Below are positions 5,047-61,631 of a stretch of DNA of 64,000 nucleotides, piece after piece. This DNA comes from Undibacterium sp. (GTDB taxonomy: Bacteria; Pseudomonadota; Gammaproteobacteria; Burkholderiales; Burkholderiaceae_D). Location of the stretch: the NCBI GenBank assembly GCA_030645915.1, contig JAUSNO010000028.1, positions 62,001-126,000 of the forward strand, given 5' to 3'. Below the pieces are notes generated by a model. The model saw only the letters and a program-made list of their open reading frames with translations. It was not told the DNA's origin and ran no database searches. The number at the start of each line of letters is the position of its first letter. Positions within the stretch are counted from its first letter, which is position 1. The position numbers and the translations under genes were made by a program.

Positions 5047-5117
5047 GCCAGCACGCAATCCCCATGCGGGTTTGCGGGCAGATAGGCTGGTGAGGCGCAT
5101 GAATGGTGCGTGCTGGC
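5047..5117. repeat. Dispersed palindromic repeat, copy 1
   Basis: A 71-bp element beginning GCCAGCACGC and ending GCGTGCTGGC, so its ends are inverted repeats. It contains the family core CCATGCGGGTTTGCGGGCAG and the right-arm core GGCGCATGAATGGTGCG. It is closely similar along its whole length to copy 2 at 10490-10560. It directly follows the MITE-like element and precedes the pilin-like gene. Confidence 0.8.
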
Positions 5118-5199
5118 GGTGCATGATATTGAATTTCAAATGTGTGTTGATGTTGTCGCTGCGTTTTTACCCTATTACTATTTTTTGGATAAACATTTA

Positions 5200-5847
5200 A
5201 TGAGTCGATTCAACTTATTTACTTTGATTGCCTTGCTGTTAACCGTTGCCCTGGGCGGATTTTTTTTATCCAATAGCCACAAGAAACAAGATTTCACTCA
5301 AGGAAATGACAGCGCATTACCTGCTCAAACTGAAAGCGCAGAAAAGTTAGCCGCCACTGAGAAAAATATAGTACAGGCGCAGCAAGCCAAGCAGGCTCTC
5401 GATCTATCGATAAGTGCGGCGCAACAGCAAACTACGGCGCTTGACAGCGCAGTCTCAAACAGCCAGAAATACCAACAAGAGATGCTCAATAACGGTAAGC
5501 GCGTGGCACGGCTGACGCAAGGCCTGGCCGTTGCCAGTGCCATCAAAACACCGATGATGGCCTACTTTATTGAGCATAATCAATGGCCGCAGTCGAACCA
5601 GATTGCCGGCGCACCTCCTGCCGAAAGCTTTAATCGCCCGCCGCATGGATCACCTGTCATCCAAAGTGGCAACGTGCTACCGGATGGAAAAATCGTCATA
5701 CAGTTCGCACAAGAAAATGGCGTAACCGAACACCTGTGGTTGCAAGCAACGGGAAGCGAACCGAACGAGATCCGCTGGCAATGCTCCAGCCCAGACATCA
5801 GCGATATCGGCAGCATTATTTCACAATGCAAGTATCAGAAAAACTAG
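5200..5847 (+). CDS. Membrane-anchored protein with pilin-like C-terminal domain
   Basis: This 215-residue protein is not assigned to a named family. From the chosen ATG at 5200 the sequence starts with a short polar stretch and one hydrophobic helix (FTLIALLLTVALGGFFL). A Gln/Ala-rich region of coiled-coil character follows at about residues 45-90. The C-terminal part (KTPMMAYFIEHNQWP, then a WQCSS segment and a late ISQCKY) resembles type IV pilin C-terminal domains, which end in a disulfide-bonded loop. No GFTLIE-type prepilin cleavage motif precedes the helix, so it is probably a membrane-anchored pilin-like protein rather than a true pilin. The frame is open another 30 codons upstream, but that stretch reads into the palindromic repeat. 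It sits between rsgA and the displaced rsgA 3' end. Confidence 0.6.
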   Translation: MSRFNLFTLIALLLTVALGGFFLSNSHKKQDFTQGNDSALPAQTESAEKLAATEKNIVQAQQAKQALDLSISAAQQQTTALDSAVSNSQKYQQEMLNNGKRVARLTQGLAVASAIKTPMMAYFIEHNQWPQSNQIAGAPPAESFNRPPHGSPVIQSGNVLPDGKIVIQFAQENGVTEHLWLQATGSEPNEIRWQCSSPDISDIGSIISQCKYQKN

Positions 5848-5965
5848 GAATTTGATTGAGCTGCACTTTCGTCTGAAAATGAAAGCGCAGTCTATTTGAT
5901 CTCTGACATTTCGAAAATTTCTCGCTAGTAGAAGAATGGGGTCGAGGGTCGCATCGCGAGTTAGG

Positions 5966-6154
5966 CAAAAGCTGGAACGCGCCTTCCCGAAATTTCTGTC
6001 GCACCTGGGCAAGTGCAAGTTCTACAATTGCCGCCATCATTCAAGACCCAACTGCACTATCACAGCAACCATCAAGATCAGTGAGACAAGTACCATGCGC
6101 CACGACCTATTCAAGCAACTGGTGCACGAGGCTGCGCAGACTATCGGGTATTGA
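5966..6154 (+). pseudogene. Displaced duplicate of the rsgA 3' end
   Basis: The translated segment (about 62 residues) matches the C-terminal zinc domain of the RsgA encoded at 3927-4841, including the motif CKFYNC with the following His and Cys ligands. Similarity starts at the codon string for LERAF and stops exactly at the TGA stop. The last 45 bases are identical to rsgA, while the first two thirds differ by many synonymous and non-synonymous changes. The GTPase domain is absent, so it cannot act as RsgA. The frame is open from an ATG at 5936, so a 72-residue zinc-motif peptide could still be made, but no good ribosome site was seen. It is most simply a scar of duplication or of integration at the gene end. 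Confidence 0.85.
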
Positions 6155-6269
6155 TAATTGACTTGGCGTTATTATGCAAGCGTAGCCAGGACGGAGATTG
6201 GCACCCCAAAATTATTTCGCTAATGGGGTGAACAGTTACTACCCACAAGATTTTGAATCGGCTAACAGC

Positions 6270-6668
6270 TTAAACAAGCGGATGATGATATCGATACTCT
6301 TGTGTCAATCCGCCATACCCATAAGTCGCTGCACGCACATCTTGTATATAGACATAACTGGTTTCGTGAAGCTGGCCTAATATTTTTTCAAAGCCCGCAA
6401 AAGCTTCACGGATATATAGCGCTTTTTCATCCTTGGAATTGGTTTCGTCGGTAATCGTGATGTCGAAGTAGAAGCTATTGAGATGTAGTTCACTCAAAAA
6501 CTGCCCTCCTATCATCCAACTATCGTGATCCACGTAGTCAATCGTAATTGCTGTCACCTCGCGTTTTTTTCTTAAAATTCGCTCGGTGATTTCCAGCAAA
6601 AATTGTGCTATCTCGCGACTCACTTTCGGTGATTTAATGGCACTGACTTTCACATTCAAAATTGGCAT
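6270..6668 (-). CDS. Tautomerase (4-oxalocrotonate tautomerase/MIF-like) family protein
   Basis: This 132-residue protein begins Met-Pro (MPILNVKVS). After Met removal it exposes the N-terminal proline that is the catalytic base of the tautomerase superfamily. A beta strand, a helix carrying ISREIAQF-like residues and a second strand (TAITIDYVD) follow, as in this fold. It is longer than the 60-70 residue 4-oxalocrotonate tautomerases, so it probably carries two units or an extension. The substrate is unknown. The promoter region contains an inverted repeat resembling one in front of the upstream MarR-type gene, which suggests the pair is co-regulated. Confidence 0.82.
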   Translation of the reverse strand: MPILNVKVSAIKSPKVSREIAQFLLEITERILRKKREVTAITIDYVDHDSWMIGGQFLSELHLNSFYFDITITDETNSKDEKALYIREAFAGFEKILGQLHETSYVYIQDVRAATYGYGGLTQEYRYHHPLV

Positions 6669-6680
6669 ACATTCTCCATA

Positions 6681-6698
6681 TAGTTAGCTATACAACTA
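6681..6698 (-). promoter_or_regulatory. Putative MarR-type operator upstream of tautomerase gene
   Basis: An inverted repeat TAGTT-8-AACTA (TAGTTAGCTATACAACTA) lies 13-30 bp before the tautomerase start. The central part TTAGCTATaCAAC recurs in front of the adjacent MarR-type gene at 7322-7340. The size and AT-rich half-sites fit MarR-family operators. Binding by the neighbouring regulator is inferred. Confidence 0.5.
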
Positions 6699-6886
6699 AA
6701 TAACAAAAAAAACCACTTCAAAACTCACACCAAGCTATATTTTCGTCATTATCGAGCATGCAAGAATCTAGTAGCTTTTCTCGTTCGCAGCATGGCTATT
6801 TTGGCGCTGAGCGTGTTGACGGAGCTGGATTCCTGCCTGCGCAATGACCTGAATGGCATTCCAAACTCAGTATCCAATCAGGAAAA

Positions 6887-7303
6887 TTATTGTAGCTTAG
6901 ACCGAATTGTTTTAACCTTAATCACGGTGTCTTCAAAATGTTCACTGCCCAATACGCGTTTTAAACGACTGGTCGTTTCGGCACCGGCAGCATGCAAACC
7001 ATCCTTTAACGTCAAAGCAAGCGCTGTCGGATAGATTGAAGATTCCCGCCCATCGGAGGCAGAAGGCCGACGTTCAATCAAGCCCAATTTTTGCAAACCA
7101 TCTAAAGTACGCGTTGTTGTGGGACGTGAAATTACCAACATCTGTGCCAGCTCATTTTGCAAAAGGCCAGACGTAGCAAGTATGGCCCGCAACATAAAGG
7201 CTTGCGAAGGCGTTAAACCAAACGGCTTAAACGCTTTAGTCCACTCTCGCTCCAAAGTGCGCGCTAAGGCATGAGTATTAAAATATAGGCAGTGATCAAA
7301 CAT
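6887..7303 (-). CDS. MarR family transcriptional regulator
   Basis: This winged-helix regulator has about 138 residues from the chosen ATG (MFDHCLYFNTHALARTLE). The winged-helix region is clear: LTPSQAFMLRAIL, then LLQNELAQMLVISRPTTTRTLDGLQKLGLIER as helix-turn-helix, and a wing with RRPSASDGRES. The frame is open 16 codons further upstream, but that extension would cover the putative operator at 7322-7340, so the internal start is preferred. The tautomerase gene lies 218 bp downstream on the same strand with a similar operator, so the protein probably represses both itself and the enzyme. The ligand is unknown. Confidence 0.88.
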   Translation of the reverse strand: MFDHCLYFNTHALARTLEREWTKAFKPFGLTPSQAFMLRAILATSGLLQNELAQMLVISRPTTTRTLDGLQKLGLIERRPSASDGRESSIYPTALALTLKDGLHAAGAETTSRLKRVLGSEHFEDTVIKVKTIRSKLQ

Positions 7304-7321
7304 ACTGCACTGTAGCGCAAT

Positions 7322-7340
7322 ATAATTAGCTATGCAACCA
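7322..7340 (-). promoter_or_regulatory. Putative MarR autoregulatory site
   Basis: The stretch around TAATTAGCTATGCAACCA shares the block TTAGCTATxCAAC with the inverted repeat before the tautomerase gene. It lies about 20 bp upstream of the preferred MarR start. It is a weaker palindrome than the other site. Confidence 0.4.
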
Positions 7341-7539
7341 ATACTGCGCATTTATTGCCTCACTAAATTACTCGATGAACTAGATTGCGATCCCCGCATG
7401 CATTTGAAGATTAAAAGCGCCATCGGGAAAATATACTTTGGGTAGCGATTATTTTTCGTCTTCAAAGGCTCTGTTTTATGTGAGAAGTAATGTTGCTGGA
7501 ACTACCTCCCAGTCCACCAGAACGCAGGCATCAAACAAA

Positions 7540-8811
7540 TTAAACCGACCAGCGTTTATTCAGTTTCTTCGTATTTCTGACAATCGTCTTATGCAAACGC
7601 TCAAGCATGGTTTGTTCAGTTCCCGGGCTTGCAACAGGTGATAGTTCTGCCACCACACTGTCTATTCTTGACACGAGATTTTCGGCTAATTTTTCAGCGA
7701 CGCTCAACACATATTTATGTTTAAAACCCAACTGGCTTGCCATGTTCTCGATATGAGCTGTCTTGATATCACCCGCAATATATTCTCCACCAATGGCAAA
7801 AGCGAATTTTTTGGAAAGACCAGGATAAAGCGAAGTGGACATCAGGTCATAAAACGGGGCTAGCCTAACGCCATGCTCCGCGGTTTGCAGGACAGACAGG
7901 TTTTTGGCATGACTGTCGTTGTTGCCGGTATACAGATTAAAAAACACCCATTCCAGCAAGCGTTTGAGATCCATTGCAGGCACATGGTTCTGCTGTAGCA
8001 GCTCGCGGCAACGGGCCAAGCTTGGCCCGCCGTCGGCTTCGTATTTGATGATGGAAGGCTTGCCGTCCAGCTGGCAAAGATCGAGCTGATGCAGCCTGAT
8101 TAACTCGCCTCTATCGTTGAACTTGCGATCATAACGTGTCACGAGACAGGCTTTAACAATCGGCTGATAGCTTACCTCTGCAACACCCATGCCGATGGCA
8201 TCGGCCAGTGTCATGACAAAGGTTTCGTTGAGTGCAGAACACCATACGCTGGGAAGGCGAACGATATCCGGTTTAAGAATATGTGTTGACGGTGCAGAGC
8301 CTAGCGGTAGCGCGGGGGTGCCATCTGGTTTGATGACCAGCAGCATTTTATCTTGTGCGCCGGCCAGCGAGATGCGCGCGCCGTCGGCGTTTTGTGCGAT
8401 GAAAGGCGCTTGAGCAGGATCGCGCAATGACTTGGCAATAGCTTCCCATGTGCTGGCCTGATAACTACGCGGCTTGGGCCGCTCTCCGTGCGGCAACAGG
8501 CTAAGGCCGCTGGCGGTATCGCCGCCTACTGCGCTTAATAAACCAAATACTGTAGTGGCATGCAGGCTGATGCTTAGATACCGTCGCAGGTCACCTTCGG
8601 GCAAGAGATTTTCAAAGTAAGCGTAAACGCCATCACCCACATGCTCCGCCTGGTGCAGCCCCATCATGGGAGCAATCGGCTCGGCATCCGGCGCACTCAT
8701 CCATGCGTCAGCGTAACGAAATGTTAAGGGCGTTTCGTCAAACAAGGTGCCGACCAGCTGCTCGTTGCGGTAGACATCGAGCGAGCGCACAGTTGAGCGA
8801 ACGGTCACCAT
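7540..8811 (-). CDS. hipA: HipA family serine/threonine kinase toxin
   Basis: HipA toxins phosphorylate translation components such as glutamyl-tRNA synthetase and cause growth arrest and persistence. The 423-residue protein has the full HipA layout: an N-terminal subdomain (residues 1-105), the phosphate-binding loop ISLAGAQDK with Ser148 at the position of the HipA autophosphorylation site, the lysine-containing THILKP strand, the catalytic NNDSHAKN loop with Asp299, and the metal-binding FYDLMS with Asp322. No key residue is missing, so the kinase should be active. It starts immediately after the hipB stop with no gap, so the two are co-transcribed and coupled. The true target in this organism is unknown. 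Confidence 0.95.
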   Translation of the reverse strand: MVTVRSTVRSLDVYRNEQLVGTLFDETPLTFRYADAWMSAPDAEPIAPMMGLHQAEHVGDGVYAYFENLLPEGDLRRYLSISLHATTVFGLLSAVGGDTASGLSLLPHGERPKPRSYQASTWEAIAKSLRDPAQAPFIAQNADGARISLAGAQDKMLLVIKPDGTPALPLGSAPSTHILKPDIVRLPSVWCSALNETFVMTLADAIGMGVAEVSYQPIVKACLVTRYDRKFNDRGELIRLHQLDLCQLDGKPSIIKYEADGGPSLARCRELLQQNHVPAMDLKRLLEWVFFNLYTGNNDSHAKNLSVLQTAEHGVRLAPFYDLMSTSLYPGLSKKFAFAIGGEYIAGDIKTAHIENMASQLGFKHKYVLSVAEKLAENLVSRIDSVVAELSPVASPGTEQTMLERLHKTIVRNTKKLNKRWSV

Positions 8812-9108
8812 TTACTTCGCTCCTTTTCGGCGGACGATGACTTCCAGCCCGATAAGGTCTAGCACATCGAGCACTTTTTGCAGTTGCAATGTAGGCTTGC
8901 CTTTTTCCAGATCGACAATAAACCGATTGCCGGTATTAGCCAATCCCGCCATATCCGCCTGCAGAATTTTTTGGGAGGTCCGATACTGCCTGATGAACTC
9001 ACCCAGTTCCTGGGTGGTATGAATATGCCTGGACATGGCAACGCTCGTTTGTGCGTTGCCATGTCCAACTTTGCTTGGCGTTTTTACTGTTTTTGGTGTC
9101 TCTATCAT
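8812..9108 (-). CDS. hipB: HipB family antitoxin, HTH DNA-binding
   Basis: This 98-residue protein has a Cro/C1-type helix-turn-helix (residues about 33-88: ELGEFIRQYRTSQKILQADM, then VDLEKGKPTLQLQKVLDVLD). It should neutralise the adjacent HipA kinase and repress the operon. The start at 9108 has a ribosome site (GGGAG). The first 25 or so residues are an extension without a clear domain, encoded partly by a 14-bp inverted repeat (9031-9066). An alternative start at Met25 exists but lacks a ribosome site. Upstream are three identical perfect palindromes that are the likely HipB operators. Confidence 0.92.
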   Translation of the reverse strand: MIETPKTVKTPSKVGHGNAQTSVAMSRHIHTTQELGEFIRQYRTSQKILQADMAGLANTGNRFIVDLEKGKPTLQLQKVLDVLDLIGLEVIVRRKGAK

Positions 9109-9132
9109 GCTGCACTCCCAATCTAAACTACA

Positions 9133-9146
9133 TTACCGATCGGTAA
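9133..9146. promoter_or_regulatory. hipBA operator 1
   Basis: Perfect 14-bp palindrome TTACCGATCGGTAA centred about 31 bp before the hipB start codon. It is the first of three identical copies spaced exactly 49 bp apart. HipB proteins are known to bind several palindromic sites before their own operon, so this is the likely HipB site. Confidence 0.7.
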
Positions 9147-9176
9147 ATTATAATGAAATATCATCCAAATGCAATG

Positions 9177-9200
9177 ATTAATTACCGATCGGTAATTAAT
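9177..9200. promoter_or_regulatory. hipBA operator 2
   Basis: The same 14-bp palindrome (9182-9195) is here extended by ATTAA/TTAAT flanks to a perfect 24-bp palindrome. It is the most symmetrical of the three sites and may be the strongest. Confidence 0.7.
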
Positions 9201-9230
9201 CGACCATTAACAAACTAAATCATTAGTAAA

Positions 9231-9244
9231 TTACCGATCGGTAA
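9231..9244. promoter_or_regulatory. hipBA operator 3
   Basis: Third identical copy of TTACCGATCGGTAA, again 49 bp from its neighbour. It lies about 130 bp before hipB. The remaining stretch up to the TPR gene at 9459 holds nothing recognisable beyond a ribosome site for that gene. Confidence 0.68.
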
Positions 9245-9458
9245 TCAATTGGACGCGCATCTGATCATGCCGTATCGCGTAAGACGCCATGTCTTCGGTA
9301 TTTCTGCTGAAAAGGGACATCACTTACTGCCTGGATATTAAGCCGTACTTCAGCATCAATATTTAGCATATTGTCATCCTTTCTTCGCTGGCATGCGTTA
9401 AGGTCGAGGTGACAATCACATTCATTTCTTTGACGGCCATTTTCCCAGGAAGCTCCCT

Positions 9459-10466
9459 ATGATCAAACTACCTCGCCCTCTACAAAAACAGATTACCGCT
9501 CGCACTCTCGCCGGCATTATCAGCAGCTTACTCTTGAGCCAAATAGCCGGCGCACATGAATATGAAGCGCTGATCAAGGCAAAAAAATATACCGAAGTCG
9601 AACGCGCCGTAGCAACAAAATTGGCCACTGATCCGAATAACGCCGATGCGCTGATCGTGCGGACCGAACTGATACTCATCGAAGGAAAAGAGAATCGTCT
9701 TGATGAAGCCGCCAAAATTGCGGAGCAATGTATTGCCGCGCACCCGAAAAATTCAGAATGCCATGAAGCCTTAGGCAATGTATTGGGCAGCAAGGCGATG
9801 CGCGGCGGCATCATGTCGGCGATGGGCTATGTGGGGAAAATTCGTGATGCATTTCAAAAATCTGTTGAACTCGATCCTAAAAACTTCAGCGCGCGCAGCT
9901 CGTTAATGCAGTTTTACCTGCAAGCGCCCAGCATGTTTGGTGGCGGCACAGCCAAAGCGAAAGAACTCATCGTAGAGACCACCGCAGTCAACCACGCCGC
10001 TGGCGCGCTATTACAAGCGACGGCAGATCTCAGCGATGAAAAATTTGACCGCGCCGAAGCGACAGTATTGGCGGTGAATGCCAACGGTGTAGAGGCATTG
10101 GCCAGCATGCAAAGAGATGTATTGTCTAGCCTTGGGCATGCCTACGTGAACGCCAAACGTTATTCTGATGGCGAGAGGATTTTCCGCGAGTTCAGCCTGC
10201 GCTATCCGGACAAGGCTGCGGGCTTCTATGGCATGGGCAAAGCGTTGCAGGAACAAGGCAAAAATAAGGAAGCCATTCCGCATTTTGAAAAATCGATACT
10301 GCTTGAAGCAAGCGCCTTTGCCTATTATCGGGTAGCCAAAGCCTGGCAGGCGATCAGCGAAAAGGCCAAGGCAATCGCCTCATTTGAAAAAGCCCTGTCC
10401 TTGAAGCCTGAACTTTCCAAGAAAACCAAATCCGATGCCGAAGACCAGTTGAAGGCACTGCGATAG
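9459..10466 (+). CDS. Periplasmic tetratricopeptide repeat protein
   Basis: This 335-residue exported protein carries several TPR units. The N-terminus is a signal peptide (basic residues, then LAGIISSLLLSQIAGA, probable cleavage after AGA). TPR-like helices follow: residues about 35-95 (YEALIKAKKYTEVERAVATK), 100-150 (NSECHEALGNVLGSKA) and 225-330 with two clear units (AAGFYGMGKALQEQGKNKEA and FAYYRVAKAWQAISEKAKAI). It has no catalytic motif and probably serves as a protein-protein scaffold in the periplasm. It has its own ribosome site (AGGAAG) and appears monocistronic, followed by a palindromic repeat. Confidence 0.85.
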   Translation: MIKLPRPLQKQITARTLAGIISSLLLSQIAGAHEYEALIKAKKYTEVERAVATKLATDPNNADALIVRTELILIEGKENRLDEAAKIAEQCIAAHPKNSECHEALGNVLGSKAMRGGIMSAMGYVGKIRDAFQKSVELDPKNFSARSSLMQFYLQAPSMFGGGTAKAKELIVETTAVNHAAGALLQATADLSDEKFDRAEATVLAVNANGVEALASMQRDVLSSLGHAYVNAKRYSDGERIFREFSLRYPDKAAGFYGMGKALQEQGKNKEAIPHFEKSILLEASAFAYYRVAKAWQAISEKAKAIASFEKALSLKPELSKKTKSDAEDQLKALR

Positions 10467-10489
10467 CAATGATCCGAATAAACCACCCT

Positions 10490-10560
10490 GCCACCACGCA
10501 ATGCCCATGCGGGTTTGCGGGCAGGCAGGCTGGAAAGACGCATGGATGGTGCGTGCTGGC
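10490..10560. repeat. Dispersed palindromic repeat, copy 2
   Basis: A 71-bp element of the same length and layout as copy 1 (5047-5117), with the shared core CCATGCGGGTTTGCGGGCAG and the end GCGTGCTGGC. It lies just after the TPR gene, between it and the convergent Crp/Fnr-type gene. Confidence 0.8.
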
Positions 10561-10678
10561 GGTGCTTGATTATTATAGTTTTGAAAGGTTTTCCGAATGC
10601 ATACCTAGGCAATGCAGAAGGAAGCTGAATGGCGTTTTTTTTCGATCATCTACCGAGCGAAAAAATAGGCGTGTTGAT

Positions 10679-11419
10679 TCACGCTTTGCTTCGTGGATTG
10701 GGAAGCAAGCGCTCATACTCGTCATTTACCACCGCATAACACTCACACACGCGCTTTTCCAATTTGGGTCGATTCACCAGAGTGATCCGGCCGCGGGCGC
10801 GCAATATCATTCCATCTTTTTGTAACTGACCTAGCGTTTGGGTTACGCTTTCCCGGCGAACACCTAACAAATTGCCTATCATCTCTTGCGTGATCAGCAG
10901 TTCATTATTGTCCAATCTGTCCGAGCTCATCAACAGCCATCGGCACAGTTGCTGATCCAATGTGTGGTGTTGGTTGCATACCGCTGTTTGCGAAGTCTGA
11001 CAAATCATTGCCTGCGTGAATAACAACGCAATATGCTGCAATTGACCACCCAGCGCAAATTCCCGTTTCATCACTTTCCGGCTGAGCCGATAGGCGTAAC
11101 CGGCGCTTTGCACTTCGGTGCTGCTTGGCATGCTCTCGCCTCCCATGAAAATAGAGATGCCGACCATACCTTCATGGCCAACTAATGCAGTTTCACTCGA
11201 CGAGCCGTCTTCTAGCGCATAGATCAGCGAGACGATGCCAGTAGTGGGAAAATGCAAGAAATTTACATGGTCGCCTGACTCGGACATCGTCCATCCGACT
11301 GGCATTTCGACCAGTTCGAGATCCGGCAAAATGCGCGCATAGTCCTGCGCAGGTAGAGCTGCAAGTATGCGATTCAACTTCGGATCAGGAGGTAATGCTT
11401 TTGCGATTATTTTTGACAT
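10679..11419 (-). CDS. Crp/Fnr family transcriptional regulator
   Basis: This regulator of about 246 residues has an N-terminal cyclic-nucleotide-binding-like beta barrel (residues about 20-145, with FPTTGIVSLIYALEDGSS and the VGHEGMVGISIFMG turn). A C-terminal winged helix follows, with ITQEMIGNLLGVRRESVTQT as recognition region. The FNR-type N-terminal cysteine cluster is absent, so it is not an oxygen-sensing Fe-S protein, and the residues contacting cAMP in CRP are not evident. This subtype is common in Burkholderiales, and its ligand is unknown. The ATG at 11419 was chosen; an in-frame TTG seven codons upstream is an alternative. Its targets cannot be read from the sequence. Confidence 0.88.
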   Translation of the reverse strand: MSKIIAKALPPDPKLNRILAALPAQDYARILPDLELVEMPVGWTMSESGDHVNFLHFPTTGIVSLIYALEDGSSSETALVGHEGMVGISIFMGGESMPSSTEVQSAGYAYRLSRKVMKREFALGGQLQHIALLFTQAMICQTSQTAVCNQHHTLDQQLCRWLLMSSDRLDNNELLITQEMIGNLLGVRRESVTQTLGQLQKDGMILRARGRITLVNRPKLEKRVCECYAVVNDEYERLLPNPRSKA

Positions 11420-11656
11420 GGCAGGTGTTGAAGTATGCAATTCGTCGGATTGGAGCTAGTCCAAATGTGCGTGCATTTTGTTTCTTAATTTGACTGGAGC
11501 AGAACAGCGTACCTTCGCCATCTGAATAGAATCTGATTCTCAGCGAAATCAGGTAAGGAGCAAATATAAAAGGAAACTGATATTCAGAGTTGCCCGTAGC
11601 ATACACGAATTATTTGAATGCTCGTTTCCGACCGGATATAAGAGAATTGCAGTCCA

Positions 11657-11687
11657 GCCAGGCAGTCTGGAAAGGCGCATGGATAGT
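11657..11687. repeat. Dispersed palindromic repeat, partial copy 3
   Basis: Only the right half of the family is present: GGCAGTCTGGAAAGGCGCAT followed by GGATAGT. It matches the corresponding part of copy 2. The left arm is missing. Confidence 0.55.
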
Positions 11688-11781
11688 TATTTCGACGGTC
11701 ACGATACCAGTCGACACCGCCAAGACACCCCCAACCCATCAGCATCATCGAATACGCTGCTAAAAATGCACTTCATTTTTG

Positions 11782-11886
11782 TCCACGAAAAGCACGAAAA
11801 AATGCAAGGCGCGACCTTTTTGATTCATTTTCTAACGTTATTTTCCCTATTTGTTGTCCGTTCGTGTCTTTCGTGCTTTTCGTGGA
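11782..11886. repeat. 18-bp inverted repeat pair with 69-bp spacer
   Basis: TCCACGAAAAGCACGAAA at 11782-11799 is perfectly complementary to 11869-11886. The sequence type (alternating CGTG and TTTC words) is one I associate with widely scattered intergenic repeats in environmental bacteria. No transposase is linked. Confidence 0.65.
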
Positions 11887-12184
11887 GAAGGTTTTTCTTT
11901 TATGCGATTGCCCCGCAGGCTTGTACAGCATTCGCCTATTTTTTCACCACACACCAGGCGTATGAGCTGGCATTTTTATCGGAGGCCCCGGGCTTTTCTC
12001 TTTGTGAGGAAACTATATTTAGTGGCTGCATTTGAGAAAATTTCTTAATTTTCTCTTGGTAAATAGTGCTTTTATTGATTTACCTACGCTTGTACTTAAA
12101 ATTCGGATATTTCCTTCCCAACTGTGTAAAAATTATTAATTGCCTCCCATCATTCATCTCAAGACGCTTACCCAAGGGTTTCCC

Positions 12185-15532: not shown

Positions 15533-15539
15533 TGTGACC

Positions 15540-17576: not shown

Positions 17577-17588
17577 CTATCTTCACTT

Positions 17589-22132: not shown

Positions 22133-22601
22133 GGTCAGCTGGATGTTTTACGGGAGAATTTATCGCTTGCAGAAACGCTGGCATTGTACAGCTCAGGCAT
22201 CAAAAATTGCCTTAAATCAATACAAGCTGAGCCGGGCGAACAGCATCCGAACAGCATCGTTACAAGCTGCAAATGATTATACAAATACGGTACGCTGATG
22301 GTTTACCGATTGCAAGACCGTTATTGAAATTTTACGATAGCAACAGGAATATAAATATTCCATAACGGCAAAAACACCATGCCCGACACGCACTATCCAT
22401 GCGCCTTTCCAGCCTGGCATGCCTGCAAGCCGCGCCGGTATTGCGTGATGGCCGTGCCATCATTTTATTTTCTATGCTGAGCTGACAATAAAGAAGTGGG
22501 CGCAACACCACGATGCATTCGCTACCTAAGGGCGCTGGCCACACTTTGTTGAATACGCTTATTTGATGAATAGCAGAGCACCATTCAAGGCAAGAATCCA
22601 T
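22133..22601. other. Intergenic region containing palindromic repeat
   Basis: About 470 bp between ftsH (3' side) and the EAL-HDOD gene promoter. The only structure seen is palindromic repeat copy 4. An 89-codon frame on the minus strand reads through the repeat and is not protein-like. Confidence 0.5.
22381..22458. repeat. Dispersed palindromic repeat, copy 4
   Basis: The left arm CACGCACTATCCATGCGCC is clear. The right arm is diverged and ends GCGTGATGGCCGTGCC. It lies downstream of ftsH and resembles copy 5, which lies upstream of ftsH, so the gene is bracketed by two members. Confidence 0.7.
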
Positions 22602-24467: not shown

Positions 24468-24890
24468 ATCCGCTCCCTTGCCTTAGGACTCATTAGTTTA
24501 TTAAGCCTACAGAGGAAAGATTAAATGTGATTGCGAATTCTCAACATTCAGTGACAGCGAATGTACTGCGGATGGACTTGGACATATCGTTAAAAAATCC
24601 GCCATAGCATGCCTGATGACGCACTATCCATGCGGGTTCCAGGCTTGCCTGGCCTGCAGGCCGCACGGGGATTGCGTGGTGGGCCATGCCATTTTTTTGC
24701 ATTTAGCTACGATTTGCCTTTACTCATGTTGAACTGGGTATCAAATCCATCTCATCTCTGCCCTTCAATTCTGCGCATAAACCGGATAATCGGTCACGCT
24801 ATCTGCCTCATGAAACACAGCAGATTTCACGTCCTGTCACTGAAGTCTGACGGCGATCATGTGTGAATACGGATAATAAAAGGAAGCGCG
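24468..24890. other. Intergenic region between divergent ftsH and methyltransferase genes
   Basis: About 420 bp containing palindromic repeat copy 5. The remainder presumably holds the two promoters, but no distinctive regulatory motif was recognised. Confidence 0.45.
24609..24690. repeat. Dispersed palindromic repeat, copy 5
   Basis: Left arm GACGCACTATCCATGCGGGT is followed by a GC-rich middle with CCAGGCTTGCCTGG and a diverged right part ending TTGCGTGGTGGGCCATGCC. The closest relative is copy 4. It lies in the divergent promoter region upstream of ftsH. Confidence 0.7.
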
Positions 24891-38205: not shown

Positions 38206-38271
38206 ACGCAATACACATGCGGGTTTCAACAGCATTTCGATTGAAAACCCGCATAGATAGTGCATTACGCC
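38206..38271. repeat. Dispersed palindromic repeat, copy 6
   Basis: Left arm ACATGCGGGTTTCAA and right arm TTGAAAACCCGCATAGATAG surround a short spacer, with ACGCAATA and TGCATTACGCC at the ends. It lies between the convergent dadA and Lrp-type genes. Confidence 0.75.
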
Positions 38272-45669: not shown

Positions 45670-45719
45670 AGCGAATAAAAGAATCAATACGAATAGTTTG
45701 ATAGTTAAAAATCGGCAAC

Positions 45720-45791
45720 GCCAACACGCACTATCCATGCGGGTTTGCGGCTGACTGCCTCTGCAACCCGCATGGATAGTGCGTGCCGGGC
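45720..45791. repeat. Dispersed palindromic repeat, copy 7 (best palindrome)
   Basis: The 72-bp element has perfect 21-bp arms: positions 45725-45745, starting CACGCACTATCCATGCGGG, pair with 45765-45785. The spacer contains TGCGGCTGACTGCCTCTGC. This is the clearest copy and serves as reference for the family. Confidence 0.9.
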
Positions 45792-45880
45792 TTGCCTATA
45801 TTTTATTTTTACAAATATGCTCATCTGGTAAGCAATACATTTCGTATTACTCAAAAAGATGAATGCAAAATCTTACTATG

Positions 45881-45924: not shown

Positions 45925-46106
45925 TAAGTCCCCACCGATGCCGCTATGCCGGCATCCTGAACCAGAAGGTTCAAGTTGGCCACAGTCCGTCCAACTTCGG
46001 GTTCATCGAACTAGCGACGCTCACACCTGTCGAACAATTTCCGCAGCCTGTGCACATAAATGGTTCAAGGAATATATGGCACTGGCGAACACGGTAGGGA
46101 ATTTAA
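45925..46106 (-). ncRNA. ssrS: 6S RNA
   Basis: On the minus strand directly downstream of zapA, about 180 nt long, with a closing stem: CCCTACCG near the 5' end pairs with CGGTGGGG near the 3' end. 6S-like words include TGTTCGCC near the 5' end, a CTTGAACC/GGTTCA hairpin near the 3' side and GCCGGCATAGCGGCAT. 6S RNA binds the housekeeping RNA polymerase in stationary phase, and the position after zapA is the usual one. The ends are estimated to within about ten bases from the stem and the terminator at 45881. Confidence 0.82.
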
Positions 46107-55048: not shown

Positions 55049-55069
55049 TTCCGCCTAGTCAGCTGGAAT

Positions 55070-55106
55070 AAAAAAAGCCGCAACCAATCTGGTCGCGGCT
55101 TTTTTT
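55070..55106. terminator. Terminator after rho
   Basis: An A run, GCCGCAACCA, ATC, TGGTCGCGGC and a T run form a hairpin with one mismatch and A/T runs on both sides. It can act in both directions between rho and the efflux operon. Confidence 0.85.
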
Positions 55107-55144
55107 ATTCTGATGCATCATGTAAAAATTAAAATACGGCAGGC

Positions 55145-55228
55145 CTGCAGCGCACTAGGCGGCGCGCACTATCCATGCGCCTTTCCAAGGCATTGCCTCG
55201 GTAAGGCGCATGAACAGTGCTTGCTGGC
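55145..55228. repeat. Dispersed palindromic repeat, copy 8
   Basis: Contains CGCACTATCCATGCGCC and a right arm GGCGCATGAACAGTGC. A first CGCACTAGGCGGCG precedes the arm, resembling the tandem unit of copy 9. It lies between rho and the convergent efflux operon. Confidence 0.75.
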
Positions 55229-55311
55229 GATGCAACAGAATGAACTTTCTAGCTCATGTCATGCCTTTTAGCTCTGATCCCAGCGAATACGCAACGAATA
55301 CGCAACATTAA

Positions 55312-56769
55312 TTACTTTGCAGCCAAACTCGACGGTTTATCCCAACCGCCACCTACCGCTTTATAGATACTCACCACCGCGCTCAAATGCGCGCGTTTGG
55401 TATCGATCAGACTCGCTTCTGCCTGCAATAAATCGCGTTGCGCGCTCAGCACTTCAAGATAGCTGCTATAGCCGTTTTTATAACGCAGATCGGCCAGACG
55501 CAATGAATCTTTCAATGCGATAACCCGACGATTGCTGGCAGCGTAAATCTGCTGGTTGGCGCTGGTATTCGTCAAAGCATCATGCACATCACGGAAAGCG
55601 CCCTGCACGGTCTGTACATACTGTGCCAGCGCTTGTGTCTTACGTGCTTCGGCAGCCGACACTACCGCACCGATGGCACCGGCACGGAACACGGGCTGCA
55701 CCAGGTTTGCACCAATGTTCCACAATAAAGAAGCCGGATTAAACAAATCCTGAAACACACGAGATTCATCGCCGATACCCGTGGTCAATTTCACGCTAGG
55801 GAAATACTGCGCCTTGGCCTGCCCCACGTCCGCATTCGCCGCGACCAAACCCTGCTCAGCCACAATGATATCCGGGCGGCGATTGAGTAAATCCGACGGC
55901 AAATCTGATGGCAGAGTTAACTGCTGATATAGCGCATCTATACTGCTACCGCGGACGATAAGCGGCTGGGCAATCGCACTTGGCGAACGACCTAACAAAA
56001 CCGCCAATGCAGACTCGGTATTGGCAAGCGCCTGTTTTGCCTGTGCCAGACTGATCTCGGCGGCAGCGGCTTCTGATTCCGCCAGATGCAGATCAAGTTC
56101 GCCCACTGATCCGGCAGAAAACCGTTTTTGCTGCAAACGCAGATTTTCCTGGCGCGTGGTCAAGGCGGATTCTGACAATGCAGCCTGAGCATCATAAGCA
56201 CGCAGAGCGAAATAATTTTGCGCCAGAGCCGAATACAAACTGCTTTGCACCAGACCGCGATTCGCTTCCTGCGCCAATAAACGCGCCCTGGAAGCCTCAT
56301 CGGCACGCGCCAATTTTCCCCAAAAATCGATTTCATACGAGGCGTTCAAGCCGACTTGAAAATCCTTGCTGACAGGATTGGCACCAGCGGCCAACTTACC
56401 GGCGTTCTCGCTGGTGCGACTTTTATTGCCACTCAACGTCGCATCAACAACCGGAAAACGGTTCGAACGCGTGCCAGTTGCGGTTGCTCTGGCTTCTTCT
56501 ATCCTGCCTGCGGCCAATACCAGATCCTGATTATTGGCGACAGCCTCATCGAGCAGGCTATTGAGCACAGGGTCTTGAAAGCTCTTCCACCAAGACAATA
56601 AATTGACGTTGGCAGCAGCCTTATCCTGCGCTGGCAGGGCTACCCAAGTCTTGGGCGTTTCCAGTACCGGCCGCTGATAATCAGGCCCCACCGCAATACC
56701 GAGAGAACCACAGCCTGCCAACGTCAGGCTGGCAGCAAGAACGCTTAACACTAATTTTGATCTAGACAT
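55312..56769 (-). CDS. RND efflux outer membrane lipoprotein channel (NodT/OprM family)
   Basis: This 485-residue outer membrane factor forms the trimeric exit duct of a tripartite pump. It has a lipoprotein signal with lipobox LAGC (Cys20), followed by GIAVGPDYQRPVLETPKTW. The two coiled-coil/outer membrane factor repeats (residues about 70-260 and 290-470) include the family motif DLLNRRPDIIVAEQGLVAAN. It is the last gene of the operon, with its start 2 bp after the pump stop codon and its own site (AAGGAAT). Confidence 0.94.
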   Translation of the reverse strand: MSRSKLVLSVLAASLTLAGCGSLGIAVGPDYQRPVLETPKTWVALPAQDKAAANVNLLSWWKSFQDPVLNSLLDEAVANNQDLVLAAGRIEEARATATGTRSNRFPVVDATLSGNKSRTSENAGKLAAGANPVSKDFQVGLNASYEIDFWGKLARADEASRARLLAQEANRGLVQSSLYSALAQNYFALRAYDAQAALSESALTTRQENLRLQQKRFSAGSVGELDLHLAESEAAAAEISLAQAKQALANTESALAVLLGRSPSAIAQPLIVRGSSIDALYQQLTLPSDLPSDLLNRRPDIIVAEQGLVAANADVGQAKAQYFPSVKLTTGIGDESRVFQDLFNPASLLWNIGANLVQPVFRAGAIGAVVSAAEARKTQALAQYVQTVQGAFRDVHDALTNTSANQQIYAASNRRVIALKDSLRLADLRYKNGYSSYLEVLSAQRDLLQAEASLIDTKRAHLSAVVSIYKAVGGGWDKPSSLAAK

Positions 56770-56771
56770 TG

Positions 56772-59700
56772 TTATTCCTTCACAACGATGACAGGCGCGT
56801 TGTGCAATATGTGAACCGGGTGATCGAAATCTTCTTCTGTCGTTTTGAACCGCCTATCGTTAATCAGTTTAAAGAACAGAGGTACAAAGAATATCGCCAG
56901 GAAGGTCGCCGCCAACATTCCGCCCAGCACACCAGTTCCAAGCGACATCCTTGCCGCGGCACCTGCACCGTGAGAAAAAGCCAAGGGAACCACCCCTAGA
57001 ATGAACGCCAGCGAGGTCATCAAGATGGGACGGAAACGCAAGCGTGCCGACTCTAATACCGCAGCTACTGGCGCATAGCCTTCATGCACTTTCATCACGG
57101 CAAACTCAACAATCAAAATCGCATTTTTTGCCGATAAACCGAGCAAAGTCACTAAGCCGATCTGGAAATAGACGTCATTGTTAAAGTGACGCAAGTACAC
57201 CGCCAGCAACGCACCGAAGATACCAAACGGCATCGCCAGTAAGACCGAGAACGGTAATGACCATTTTTCATATTGTGCCGCCAGAATCAAAAAGATCATC
57301 AAGACACCAGCGCCAATGGCGATACCTGCGGCATTGCTGGTACGTTTTTCCTGAAACGAAGCGCCGCCCCAGTCGTAACCCATATCCGTCGGCAAGACCG
57401 TTTTAGCGACGCGCTCCATTGCAGCAATTGCTTGCCCTGAGCTATAGCCGGGTTTCGCACCACCCAGAATTTTGATCGATGGCAAAGCATTAAAATGCTG
57501 TACCGAATCTGGCCCGGCAATAAAGCGTATCGTCGTAAATGCACGCACCGGTATCATTTGACCTGTAGCGGATCGCACATACATGCTACCAATATCATCC
57601 GGTTTCGCACGGAACTGGCCTTCAGCCTGCAGCTGCACGGTGTAAGTGCGGCCGTTCTTATTAAAGTCATTCACATAATAGCTTCCCATGGTTGCAGACA
57701 GGGTGTTGTAAATATCGGAAAGTGCAACCCCCATGGAGCGTGCTTTTTCATTATCGACATCGACAAATAACTGCGGCGAATTGGCTTGCCATAAGGTTTG
57801 CACGCCAGCCAGTTCAGGCTGTTTATTGGCTTCGGCAAGCAATGCGGGCAAGAGTTCGGCCAATCGCTTGACGCCACCTTCACCTTTATTTTGCAGGTAA
57901 AACTCAAACCCGCCTGTTTGCCCCAAGCCCTGAATCGCCGGTGGGCTAAAAAACAATGGCATACCTTCTTTGATGCCACCTGTTTTCATATAGGCTTCGC
58001 CAACCATCTGCTGGGCTGATTGGTTACGCTCGTCCCAAGGTTTCAAAGGAAAGAACATGGTTGCTGCGGAAGATTTCAAACCGCCACCACCCAGGAAATC
58101 CAAACCAACCAACGCAAAGGTGGTATCAATATTTTTATTGGTTTTCATGATGTCTTCGACTTGTCGCACCATCGCATCTGTACGCGCCAGTGACGCACCA
58201 TCAGGCATGATCGCAGCACCGATGAAATAACCCTGATCTTCATCTGGTACCAATCCACCCGGCACAGCTTTCCACAGTACGCCGGTTACCACCAGCATGC
58301 CACCGAACAGCAGGACACCTAATACGGAACGTCTCAGGAAAAACGTGACGCCGTTGGTGTAGCGTTTGGTCAGACGTAAAAAAGCGCCATTGAACCAGGT
58401 GAAAAAACGATTATGCTGTTCTGCGCCCGGCTTAAGCAAGAGCGCGCACAAAGCCGGTGTCAGCGTTAACGCGACTACGCCGGACAACACTACCGCAATC
58501 GATATCGTCACTGAGAATTGGCGATACAACTCACCTGCCAAACCACCCAGAAAAGCAATCGGACCAAAGGCCGCAACCAGCACCAGCACAATCGCAATGA
58601 CCGGGCCAGTCACTTCATGCATCGCCTCAATCGCTGCTTCTTTTGGTGACATTCCTTCTTCGTTCATTAGACGTTCGACGTTTTCCAGCACCACAATCGC
58701 ATCATCGACCACGATACCAATTGCCAGCACCATACCGAATAAAGTGAGGGTATTGATACTGTAGCCGAGCAGGTGCAAGCCAGCCATCGTACCAATCAAA
58801 GATACCGGTACCGCCAGCGTTGGAATGATGGTAGCGCGCCAGCTTTGCAAGAAGACATACACAACGATGAACACCAGGATCATCGCCTCACCCAAGGTTT
58901 TTAATACCTCGGCGATCGATTCCGTCACAAATGGTGTGGTGTCGTAAGGAGTCGCGTATTCCATCCCCTCAGGAAACTTCGCTTTAAGTTCTTGCAACGT
59001 AGTTTCAATCGCTTTGCGTGTATCTAATGCATTCGCTCCGGTCTGCAAGAAGACACCAATGTTGGCAGATGGATGGCCATTGACGCGGCCATTCAGATTG
59101 TAATCCTTGGAGCCGAGTTCTATCCGTGCCACATCTTTGACACGAATCGTCGCGCCGCCTTTGGCCGTCTTCACGATGATATTGGCAAATTCCGATGGCT
59201 CCAGCAAGCGACCTTTCGCAGTGACGGTCATCGTCAATTCTTCGGTATTATTTGGCGGAGCACCCACTTTACCTGCCGCGTACTGCGCATTTTGCTCGGT
59301 AATCGCGTTCGAAATATCACCGACTGTCACGCCCAATTGCGCCATACGATCAGGACGCATCCAGATGCGCATTGCGTAATCTTTCGCGCCGAAAATTTGA
59401 ATATTGGTGGTGCCTGGCACCCGCTTTAAAGCATCCAGCACGTGTTGTGTCGCATAGTTCGACAGGTACAAGGCATCGTATCGGTTGTCAGGTGAGAATA
59501 AGGCCGCAACCACCAGGAAATTCGATGAACTCTTCGACACTGTCACACCCTGGCGGCGAACTTCTTGCGGTAATTTAGCATCCGCTTGGCGCACCCGATT
59601 GTTGACATTGACAGCAGCTATATCAAGATCAGTACCGACTTCAAAAGTCACGTTGATCGATACCCGGCCATCAGCGGAGGAAGTCGAATCCATAAATAGC

Positions 59701-59927
59701 ATGTGTTCGACGCCGTTGATCTGTTCTTCAATCGGTGCGGCAACGGTGCGTTCGACCACTTCAGCAGAAGCGCCAGGATAAACGGCAGTCACATTGACGA
59801 CCGGCGGAGAAATTTCAGGGTAGCGTGAGATCGGCAGGACGCGCAAGGCGGCCAAACCGGTGAGTACGATAATCAGCGACAACACCGTCGCAAAAATCGG
59901 TCGGTTAATAAAAAATTTAGAGAACAT
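56772..59927 (-). CDS. RND multidrug efflux pump permease (HAE1, AcrB/MexB-like)
   Basis: This 1051-residue inner membrane proton-drug antiporter has normal HAE1 length with 12 expected membrane segments and two large periplasmic loops. It begins MFSKFFINRPIFATVLSLII. Proton-relay aspartates lie in the GIVVDDAIVVLENVER helix, and it carries the classical GAFGPIAFLGG-like and LAIFFVPLFF ends. It operates with the adaptor encoded upstream and the channel encoded downstream to expel hydrophobic drugs. Which drugs it exports cannot be told from sequence. Confidence 0.96.
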   Translation of the reverse strand: MFSKFFINRPIFATVLSLIIVLTGLAALRVLPISRYPEISPPVVNVTAVYPGASAEVVERTVAAPIEEQINGVEHMLFMDSTSSADGRVSINVTFEVGTDLDIAAVNVNNRVRQADAKLPQEVRRQGVTVSKSSSNFLVVAALFSPDNRYDALYLSNYATQHVLDALKRVPGTTNIQIFGAKDYAMRIWMRPDRMAQLGVTVGDISNAITEQNAQYAAGKVGAPPNNTEELTMTVTAKGRLLEPSEFANIIVKTAKGGATIRVKDVARIELGSKDYNLNGRVNGHPSANIGVFLQTGANALDTRKAIETTLQELKAKFPEGMEYATPYDTTPFVTESIAEVLKTLGEAMILVFIVVYVFLQSWRATIIPTLAVPVSLIGTMAGLHLLGYSINTLTLFGMVLAIGIVVDDAIVVLENVERLMNEEGMSPKEAAIEAMHEVTGPVIAIVLVLVAAFGPIAFLGGLAGELYRQFSVTISIAVVLSGVVALTLTPALCALLLKPGAEQHNRFFTWFNGAFLRLTKRYTNGVTFFLRRSVLGVLLFGGMLVVTGVLWKAVPGGLVPDEDQGYFIGAAIMPDGASLARTDAMVRQVEDIMKTNKNIDTTFALVGLDFLGGGGLKSSAATMFFPLKPWDERNQSAQQMVGEAYMKTGGIKEGMPLFFSPPAIQGLGQTGGFEFYLQNKGEGGVKRLAELLPALLAEANKQPELAGVQTLWQANSPQLFVDVDNEKARSMGVALSDIYNTLSATMGSYYVNDFNKNGRTYTVQLQAEGQFRAKPDDIGSMYVRSATGQMIPVRAFTTIRFIAGPDSVQHFNALPSIKILGGAKPGYSSGQAIAAMERVAKTVLPTDMGYDWGGASFQEKRTSNAAGIAIGAGVLMIFLILAAQYEKWSLPFSVLLAMPFGIFGALLAVYLRHFNNDVYFQIGLVTLLGLSAKNAILIVEFAVMKVHEGYAPVAAVLESARLRFRPILMTSLAFILGVVPLAFSHGAGAAARMSLGTGVLGGMLAATFLAIFFVPLFFKLINDRRFKTTEEDFDHPVHILHNAPVIVVKE

Positions 59928-59962
59928 GTTTGATTCCTGGTAGCTTGAGCGTAGGGGTCAGC

Positions 59963-61288
59963 TTAGTGAGCCGCTTTTGGGCTGGCAGCGTCGACAGCAG
60001 GCTTGTTATTCGATGTTGCCGGTGCAGCTGGCGCACCAGCCGTGACTTCTGCGCCCTGCCCGGCTTTAACTACCAGGGCAACCGGCGTTACCGTCATGCC
60101 CGGGGTATGCGCTTTGATGAAGCCGTCAACCAATACCCGGTCGCCACTTTGCAAGCCTTTAGTCACGATCCATTCGCCATTTGACCAGCCATCCAGTTCA
60201 ACCGGTCTGGGCGCCAGCTTGTTGTCGGGCGACACGGTAAATACCATCTTGCCCATCGGCCCGTCGATCACGGCACGCTGTGGCACAGCGGTCGCCGCTG
60301 TACGCGTGGCACCATTCAAGAGAACGCGGACAAATTGGCCGGGGCGCAAATTTCCATCCGGATTAGGAATCTGGGCGCGCGCATCAAAACCGCCAGTGGC
60401 AGGATTAACCCTCTCGCTGACAAAATTCATCTTGCCATTAGTTGGGTAAACGCTGCCGTCAGCGAGCTTGAGTTTGACGTCGAACGCCAGGCTGCCGTTA
60501 TTCGCACGCTTGCCAGGCAATGCCAGCTTGCCGCTGCCCAGTTCTTGGCTCACCTTCAAAAAGTCAGTTTCAGGTATGCTGAAATTGACGTAGACCGGAT
60601 CAGTTTGCACGATGGTCGTGAGCAAACTATCTGCCGGCGTCACCAAACTGCCGTTGGATTTGCTGGCAATCCCGGTCACGCCGGAGATAGGTGCAACCAC
60701 TTTGGTGTAGCCAAGATTGAGCTTGGCTTCGTTCACTTGTGCGCGAACCTGTTTATAACCGGCCTCAGCGCTTTCCAGGACAGATTTGGCGTCGTCAAAT
60801 TCTTTTTGACTGATGGCTTTCTCTGCTACCAGAGGCGCCAGTCGCGCGAATTCGCGTTTTGCCTGATTAAGTTTCGCTTCGCTCACACCTGCCGCAGCTT
60901 CCGCCGATGCCAGCTGGGTTTGATAAGTGCCCGGATCGATCTGGAACAATACCGCTCCGGCTTTTACTTTTGAGCCCTCTTCGTAAAGGCGGCTCTCCAA
61001 AATGCCTGAAATACGCGCACGCACTTCGGTCTCACTCGATCCGGCGGTTTGCCCCACATATTCAAAATTCATGGCCAGATTTCTGGCCTGCACCGTGACG
61101 ATGTTCACTTCTGGTGGCGGCATATTTCCTGGTGCAGCATTGGCTGCGCCGTCTTGTTTGCCACATGCGGACAATAATAGTAATGGCAAGCTAATGGAAG
61201 CCACCCCAAGAACCCGGTAAAGGGAAAAGTGAGCGGCATTGTGAGTGAAGGAGGTACGGGGCGATGGAATGTTGCTAGAAGCGCGCAT
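59963..61288 (-). CDS. RND efflux periplasmic adaptor lipoprotein (AcrA/MexA-like)
   Basis: This 441-residue membrane fusion protein links pump and channel. The N-terminus is a lipoprotein signal with lipobox LSAC (Cys42). After a flexible Pro-rich piece come the beta-barrel/lipoyl segments (PPEVNIVTVQARNLAMNFEY), a coiled-coil hairpin (EAAAGVSEAKLNQAKREFAR) and the membrane-proximal domain. A low-complexity Ala/Pro tail ends the protein. It is the first gene of the three-gene operon and is divergent from an AcrR-type repressor gene. Confidence 0.95.
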   Translation of the reverse strand: MRASSNIPSPRTSFTHNAAHFSLYRVLGVASISLPLLLLSACGKQDGAANAAPGNMPPPEVNIVTVQARNLAMNFEYVGQTAGSSETEVRARISGILESRLYEEGSKVKAGAVLFQIDPGTYQTQLASAEAAAGVSEAKLNQAKREFARLAPLVAEKAISQKEFDDAKSVLESAEAGYKQVRAQVNEAKLNLGYTKVVAPISGVTGIASKSNGSLVTPADSLLTTIVQTDPVYVNFSIPETDFLKVSQELGSGKLALPGKRANNGSLAFDVKLKLADGSVYPTNGKMNFVSERVNPATGGFDARAQIPNPDGNLRPGQFVRVLLNGATRTAATAVPQRAVIDGPMGKMVFTVSPDNKLAPRPVELDGWSNGEWIVTKGLQSGDRVLVDGFIKAHTPGMTVTPVALVVKAGQGAEVTAGAPAAPATSNNKPAVDAASPKAAH

Positions 61289-61336
61289 GACAGATTCTTT
61301 CTTCTAAATGGCTGCAAATGAGGGACGGTGTGCTAT

Positions 61337-61360
61337 TATATACATTCATGGATGTTTGTA
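61337..61360. promoter_or_regulatory. AcrR-like operator of the efflux operon
   Basis: A 24-bp imperfect palindrome with core TACATTCATGGATGTTTGTA. By my recollection it agrees with the E. coli AcrR operator at 20 of 24 positions. It lies about 50 bp upstream of the adaptor start, in the intergenic region shared with the divergent TetR/AcrR-type gene. Confidence 0.65.
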
Positions 61361-61529
61361 AATAAATTTACGAATATTTTTTATTATTTTTCATAACAGA
61401 ATAAGTGAGTTTCACGTCAAAGCAAGATTCTTATGGCTACCCCATCAATCTTTGTATTGCACTTGAATCTGATTCAACAGCAAGAAGCGCCTTGCATGGC
61501 ATGATCATCAAGAATTTCTTGCTACGCAT

Positions 61530-61631
61530 GCCTCAACACGCACTAGGCGGAGCGCACTAGGCGGAGCGCACTATCCATGCGGGTTACAGAGCATATAGGC
61601 TGGAAACCCGCATGGACAGTGCGTGCTGGGC
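61530..61631. repeat. Dispersed palindromic repeat, copy 9, with tandem 14-bp units
   Basis: Arms CGCACTATCCATGCGGGTT and AACCCGCATGGACAGTGCG flank ACAGAGCATATAGGCTGG-like spacer sequence. Before the left arm the 14-bp unit CGCACTAGGCGGAG occurs twice in tandem. It lies just upstream of the AcrR-type gene in the 450-bp divergent region. Confidence 0.8.

Follow-up and report, generated by a model that had tools for sequence, protein, structure and literature searches.

A 64,000-nucleotide stretch of an Undibacterium genome (hereafter the window; C36:62001-126000 of the genome G000, i.e. 4.17 Mb in 39 contigs) carries a palindromic repeat between its genes, eight times complete and once truncated. 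A short core is enclosed by two inverted 19-nt arms, the starts of which lie 38 nt apart (39 in one window copy), and the complete arm-core-arm units of 57/58 bp start at 5054, 10497, 22389, 24620, 38207, 45727, 55165 and 61567. The features, including outer arms and extensions, are listed below; strand is given where one was assigned, the two forms (type I and type II) are described further on, and the gene neighbourhoods, here and in the larger sample of 59 elements, derive from a simple purpose-made gene caller.

5041..5123, no strand: type I element (spacing 38) between tandem genes, with arms of 34.6 and 24.9 bits
10484..10566, no strand: type I element between convergent genes
11657..11687, minus strand: truncated element, i.e. 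the core and the inner part of one arm (inverted pair I13, 25 nt, 96%)
22376..22458, no strand: type I element between tandem genes
24607..24689, no strand: type I element between divergent genes
38207..38264, no strand: type II element (spacing 39, A/T-rich core, without outer arms) between convergent genes
45714..45796, no strand: type I element, the best copy, with perfect 21-bp arms, adjoining a 6S RNA gene
55151..55234, no strand: type I element with one left extension unit CGCACTAGGCGGCG at 55151-55164 (repeat family D6)
61539..61636, no strand: type I element with two tandem 14-nt left extension units CGCACTAGGCGGAG at 61539-61566 (repeat family D6)

All nine places at which an initial annotation of the window had reported a dispersed palindromic repeat do hold one, albeit truncated at 11657-11687, and the perfect arms that it ascribed to the best copy comprise exactly 21 complementary bp (45725-45745 with 45765-45785). 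The likeness of the arms goes beyond composition, as the 19-mer arm matches the window 12 times at up to 3 mismatches where 0.02 matches are expected, a number reached by none of 100 shuffles. Two details needed revision. The arms are conserved as described, but the supposedly variable core is of near-fixed length (19 nt, and 20 nt at 38207) with a weak asymmetric consensus, GCAGGCCAGATAGGCTGGA; and the placement, said to be mainly between convergent genes or near promoters, amounts to 3 convergent, 3 tandem and 2 divergent gaps for the eight complete copies. The repeat matches no Rfam RNA: a scan of the window returned, as the sole match at gathering score, the 6S RNA gene beside the best copy (RF00013, 80.2 bits; 45925-46103, minus strand).

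The possibility that these were the only copies in the genome fails by a wide margin. Throughout G000 the arm occurs 216 times at up to 2 mismatches (108 forward, 108 reverse), the same pattern written backwards not once. A sample of 792,878 bp, to which an arm-pair model was applied with the reversed sequence as control, contains 59 complete elements, all scoring above 40 bits (control: none above 8 bits), which by proportion implies about 310 copies per genome. Solo arms above 12 bits number 9 (2 in the control) as opposed to 59 doublets. Although the sampled contigs are 78-84% coding, none of the 59 elements extends more than 30 bp into a called gene; one lies at a contig edge and the others are distributed over tandem (26 for 420 gaps), convergent (19 for 94) and divergent gaps (13 for 94). 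Measured against GC skew, the strands of clearly oriented copies display no convincing bias (28 of 50 in G000, 15 of 25 in the related genome G016 and 7 of 10 in G014).

The two forms of the element differ in core, spacing and outer parts. In type I an outer arm (approximately GGCA.GCC) is followed by the arm, CGCACTATCCATGCGGGTT or a variant of it, then by an asymmetric core of 19 nt and by the mirror arm, at a spacing of 38. Type II has like arms around a 20-nt A/T-rich core, at a spacing of 39; it lacks the outer arms, and the TT..AAA pattern in its flanks is nearer to the arm by about 8 nt (7 copies). The spacing is 38 in 50, 39 in 7 and 37 in 2 of the 59 sampled elements. At several loci 14-nt units, CGCACTAGGCGGAG, occur once or more on one or both sides of type I copies. 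The arm consensus differs between genomes, being CGCACTATCC in G000, CGCATATTCC in G016 and CGCAATATCC in G014. The tetranucleotide tags of the known repetitive extragenic palindromic (REP) sequences are rare in the 16 nt outside the arms: GTAG/CTAC was found at only 3 of the 118 element ends and CGTC/GACG at only 1, and the repeat is therefore neither a GTAG REP nor a CGTC REP.

Within the genus the distribution is patchy. A covariance model of the element matched 16 of 43 Undibacterium genomes and left 27 without a match; seven have at least 11 matches (G000, G006, G016, G014, G011, G018 and G021) and nine have 1 to 4, where counts near 105 are lower bounds and a palindrome may be counted on both strands. 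In 400 kb read directly from each, G016 has 38 elements (two of them overlapping) and G014 has 16; together with that of G000 the DNA sampled amounts to 1.59 Mb. Outside the genus the arm pattern was absent from all 24 genomes of other genera searched; of 392 genomes in the family the perfect-arm pattern occurs in 3, all of them Undibacterium. One plasmid record was also found. With respect to phages as carriers, two patterns retrieved no viral contigs. The plasmid record, NC_007950.1 (Polaromonas sp. JS666 plasmid 2), has at 308941-308992 a single palindrome with the common 14-bp arms TATCCATGCGGGTT, upstream of genes for a KfrA_N protein and a tyrosine recombinase beside a Tn3-family transposase. 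As a lead towards the mover it was dropped (E 0.004, one record); of 43 Undibacterium genomes a single one matches the KfrA_N protein, and weakly (1.6e-4), the recombinase itself not being searched. Among the titles and abstract openings listed in literature searches none was about this repeat family; the 13-mer occurs in a paper on Yersinia rovA, among the literature matches listed.

Comparison of sites between relatives points to lineage-specific placement with some sharing. Four window elements were placed between homologous flanks in relatives, and in 4 of 17 comparisons (counted after dropping one duplicate G016 row) the same gap holds an element: 38207 in G011, as a diverged copy, 45727 in G016, and 61567 in G006 and G016. 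The gap of 55165 lacks an element in the four relatives compared. Conversely, of six elements from relatives placed into sampled G000 DNA, four fall in a gap that holds a G000 element. A second synteny query found no collinear region. In shared gaps both arms differ together between species, which may reflect either shared ancestry with compensatory change or re-insertion in a favoured gap; on the present data gene conversion between elements, which we also considered, is inseparable from re-insertion. No target-site duplication stands out at any offset for 37 type I copies without extension or for 7 type II copies (best z 3.4 over all offsets and lengths), and the longest direct flank repeat in those 37 copies averages 4.97 against 5.28 expected. 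At one place G014 (4068750-4077370) and G016 (3700001-3708621) are 100% identical over at least 8.6 kb, whereas neighbouring blocks are about 67-91% identical; the block carries one copy of the repeat, which can have travelled with a recent transfer, unless the assemblies share sequence.

Repeats of this general layout are candidates for movement by REP-associated tyrosine transposases (RAYTs, also TnpA-REP, i.e. Y1/HUH transposases), and such genes are present in the genus. The Pfam model PF01797 (Y1_Tnp) has three matches in G000 and matches in all 32 genome entries surveyed (of which G060 and G061 duplicate the matches of G006 and G018), but among 30 fetched PF01797 loci and the three of G000 a clear element was seen only at L011, 600 bp from a degenerate RAYT; 20 further stretches yielded elements near three RAYT-like genes in G006. 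By these Pfam scans there seemed to be no RAYT link at all, a reading that for type II was overturned by the more sensitive REP-transposase model NF047646 (cut-off 80 bits). This model adds an intact-looking RAYT in G000 (L231, C29:26319-26768, 199 bits) that matches the solved TnpA-REP structure 4er8 at 8e-47 with the HUH and tyrosine regions aligned. In five high-copy genomes 12 RAYT loci, genes or remnants, score above 95 bits. A type II element lies within 1 kb of 5 of these 12 against 0.59 expected (P 1.5e-4, or 0.002 when the orthologous loci L241 and L242 are counted once), and an element of either type within 1 kb of 7 against 2.3 (P 0.003), the expectations being taken from random genes, with G016 and G014 supplying the densities used for G006 and G011. 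Two side observations concern other loci. REP tails at L224 and L230 that resemble the arms (GCATGG) were rejected as a link, the arm-model score at L230 being reached at 8e-5 of background positions. L009 in G000 (C13:1932-2258) is a broken Y1 transposase whose inverted repeats include GGGGTCAGC, which fits the published TIRYT motif GGGGWSAS.

At a lowered threshold a diverged type II element was found about 70 bp before the RAYT start in G011 (L240) and G029 (L232), where it abuts a GTAG REP and is tandemly repeated with it. In an alignment of six leaders the element is present in G011, G029 and G027 (before a broken RAYT), survives in decayed form in G006 and G000, and is absent from G016; on sequence grounds these RAYTs appear to belong together as a set of similar genes. 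BLAST searches of eight genomes with the leader unit found it in two places each in G029 and G011, all at a RAYT, and in one place in G027, before the broken RAYT; there are no other places in G029, and weak matches occur elsewhere in G000, G006, G011 and G033. The covariance model has no match in G029 or G027. When the L240 unit was compared without gaps to the 1.59 Mb of sampled DNA, the ten best matches all fell on type II elements; eight distinct elements are involved, of which three lie at the G016 RAYT locus, and the eleventh match was no element.

The repeats behave like a population of REPINs, which are REP doublets that fold into a hairpin. Taken together, the observations suggest, with a confidence that falls a little short of even, that they are non-autonomous mobile elements, that the type II form of the RAYT locus is ancestral and type I derived, and that a RAYT-class enzyme is the mover. 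The doublet of two inverted arms and a fixed-length core would spread as one unit into intergenic DNA. Type II, scarcer and probably older, would have been part of the 5' leader in the ancestor of a set of similar RAYT genes, and type I would have arisen from it and undergone independent amplification in a few species, which differ in arm variant. The RAYT-class enzyme is predicted to recognise the arms as single-stranded hairpins and to copy or move the doublet in trans. Type II then appears tied by descent to the RAYT locus and type I is most simply seen as its amplified derivative, although we infer both this derivation and the role of the RAYT as mover. These results bear on three broader proposals of the initial annotation. 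That the family is REP/BIME-like (BIME, bacterial interspersed mosaic element) agrees with the inverted doublet, the intergenic position, the copy number and the rarity of solo arms, though not with the missing GTAG and CGTC tags; mobilisation in trans fits the patchy occurrence and the lineage-specific sites, though not the distribution of RAYTs; and a RAYT flanked by the same arms was not found for type I, dominant in the window, while for type II, residing in the 5' leader of similar RAYTs, the proposal was borne out in part.

A number of points weigh against this interpretation. The RAYTs whose flanks were read (L226 and L228, at contig ends, were left out of this judgement) carry GTAG REPs of their own, for instance GTAGGGTGCGCCATGCGCACC at L231 in G000, and in the E. 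coli system GTAG is essential according to the portions of PMC8266576 that treat it, while nearly all ends of the Undibacterium element lack it. Type I arms on both sides of the gene, within about 1.5 kb each way, were seen at 0 of 12 RAYT loci. The presence of RAYTs and the number of copies do not go together: G018, which is 89% complete and has 45 matches, lacks a RAYT above the NF047646 cut-off, and G029, G030 and G012 have RAYTs despite 0, 0 and 3 matches to the covariance model. With GTAG missing, no type I at RAYTs and a poor fit to copy number, the RAYT as mover stays slightly below even odds. The statistics have limits of their own: within 500 bp of a RAYT any element is found at 4 of 12 loci against 1.8 (P 0.09, not significant), and the type II subgroup was chosen after the loci had been seen. 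As to the leader unit, the arms served to find it and L240 lay below the first threshold; BLAST found nothing in G016 or G014; the core of L240 alone agrees with type II only modestly (8.7 of 20 positions, shuffles 6.1, p 0.016), and over its full length the unit resembles both types about equally (type II 55.6%, type I 54.8%, shuffles 28%). The leader copies are homologous by descent and hence represent one ancestral event, possibly an old insertion, and repeat-rich RAYT surroundings may simply tolerate insertions. Finally, the inner arms of 74 type I copies in G000 match no better within an element than after re-pairing (1151 vs 1143, p 0.22).

Several of these points are shared by the explanation that survives best beside the one above, namely that the element is REPIN-like but has a different mover, and that its nearness to RAYTs reflects the gathering of repeats in permissive intergenic clusters; we consider this possible, though we incline against it. 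Both the separate GTAG REPs of the RAYTs and the richness in elements of G018, which lacks a RAYT above the cut-off, speak for it, as does the fact that type I occurs within 1 kb of only 2 of 12 RAYT loci, approximately as for random genes (any-element expectation 2.3, type II 0.6). Few elements, moreover, have the GTAG REP of the RAYT within 200 bp: none of the 59 in G000, none of the 16 in G014 and, in G016, 4 of 38, of which three are type II. At the G016 RAYT three type II copies stand beside the GTAG REP. Nevertheless, type II occupies the same leader position across genomes, and in G029 and G027 the leader copies are the sole ones detected by BLAST. With regard to another transposase, solo arms are too few to flank one in the 793 kb read, the remaining genome being unread in that respect.

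That host selection maintains the copies at gene ends as functional RNA or as terminator hairpins we judge improbable. Of eight window copies folded as RNA, seven reach z <= -2 (the best, 45707-45803, -61 kcal/mol and z -9.5), which would suit such hairpins, while the copy at 22375-22459 folds no better than shuffles (z -0.13). Convergent gaps are the ones most often occupied, yet 13 of 59 elements lie between divergent genes, the 55165 copy adjoins a separate terminator-like hairpin, and a host function sits poorly with 27 of 43 congeners having no match. The flanks, A-rich on the left and T-rich on the right, also recall terminators: in 84 flanks free of extension units the A+T content at -27..-15 is 0.71-0.77, compared with 0.56 in intergenic DNA generally. 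However, it is as high facing gene starts (0.73 and 0.77) as facing gene ends (0.71 and 0.77), and this independence of gene direction argues against selection as terminators. Covariation is equally divided. The outer positions -8..-1 covary in G000 (302 vs 274, p 0.0025; 60 copies without extension) but not significantly in G016 (p 0.36) or G014 (p 0.21). Arm positions 4-9 agree within elements beyond re-paired arms in G016 (121 vs 102, p 0.0003; 26 type I copies) and G014 (43 vs 32, p 0.0065; 11 copies), as they do in the 111 pooled type I copies of G000, G016 and G014 (486 vs 391, sd 12), a figure that includes the difference between species; this agreement counts in favour of the REPIN-like reading. 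Positions 15-18 show no within-element match in any set, ten G016 type II copies give nothing significant, and RNAalifold on 40 copies (five of them type II) finds hardly any covariation (-0.13 kcal/mol). These mixed results imply that pairing is constrained only in part.

Less probable still is that each arm is a half-site for a chromosome-organising or regulatory protein: in G000 the arms show conservation at set positions and free combination of inner-arm variants, as binding sites might, but copy number ranges from none to an estimated hundreds among congeners, the arms change together between species and 13 of 17 site comparisons lack a shared element. A classical miniature inverted-repeat transposable element of the DDE kind, i.e. 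the terminal inverted repeats of an insertion sequence that lost its middle, would account for the inverted ends, small size and intergenic copies, and is the least credible of all given that the target-site duplication was not found in the 37 type I and 7 type II copies and that no parent element with these ends was seen in the sampled DNA. Independent of the repeat, the window contains at 9120-9244, between two open reading frames, three copies of ATTACCGATCGGTAA at an exact 49-nt spacing, resembling an operator array (family D8).

The origin of REP-type repeats, and the way in which they acquire a transposase, is an open question. It is conceivable, though on balance unlikely, that in Undibacterium a RAYT-leader palindrome distinct from the GTAG REP escaped to found a second REPIN-like population without a GTAG guide, in which the core would have changed in length, outer arms would have been gained and hundreds of copies with species-specific arms would have accumulated; either one kind of RAYT would then serve two unlike repeat families, or a tagless family would use another enzyme. 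One genus holds leader-bound, scarce dispersed and highly amplified forms side by side, and genomes at no, low and high copy number, together with expressible RAYT genes, would make origin and mobilisation directly testable.

Among known systems, ERIC, BOX, Correia and similar elements are short intergenic hairpins whose mover is unclear, and the Undibacterium repeat resembles them by description rather than by compared sequence. The CGTC REPs are, according to the GTAG/CGTC survey (PMC3733652), a palindromic family without a dedicated transposase; the element described here differs from them in lacking the CGTC tag and in its much longer stem. The same survey raises the question of whether de-novo REP formation still occurs. 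With the REPtrons of GTAG REPs and RAYTs, as portrayed in parts of PMC3733652 and PMC8266576, the element has in common that RAYTs are found in the same genomes and that the leader type II copies stand beside GTAG REPs, whereas its own ends lack GTAG and the RAYTs there have separate GTAG REPs. The closest likeness in layout is to REPINs which, in the sections of Bertels and Rainey (2011, PMC3116915) drawn on here, are likewise inverted doublets with a fixed spacer, intergenic and at high copy number, with the doublet and not the singlet as the unit and with populations that differ between related genomes. Compared with that account the Undibacterium repeat has no GTAG tag, an asymmetric core, no RAYT between type I arms, and arm starts 38-39 nt apart as against 71 bp for the SBW25 group I 16-mers.

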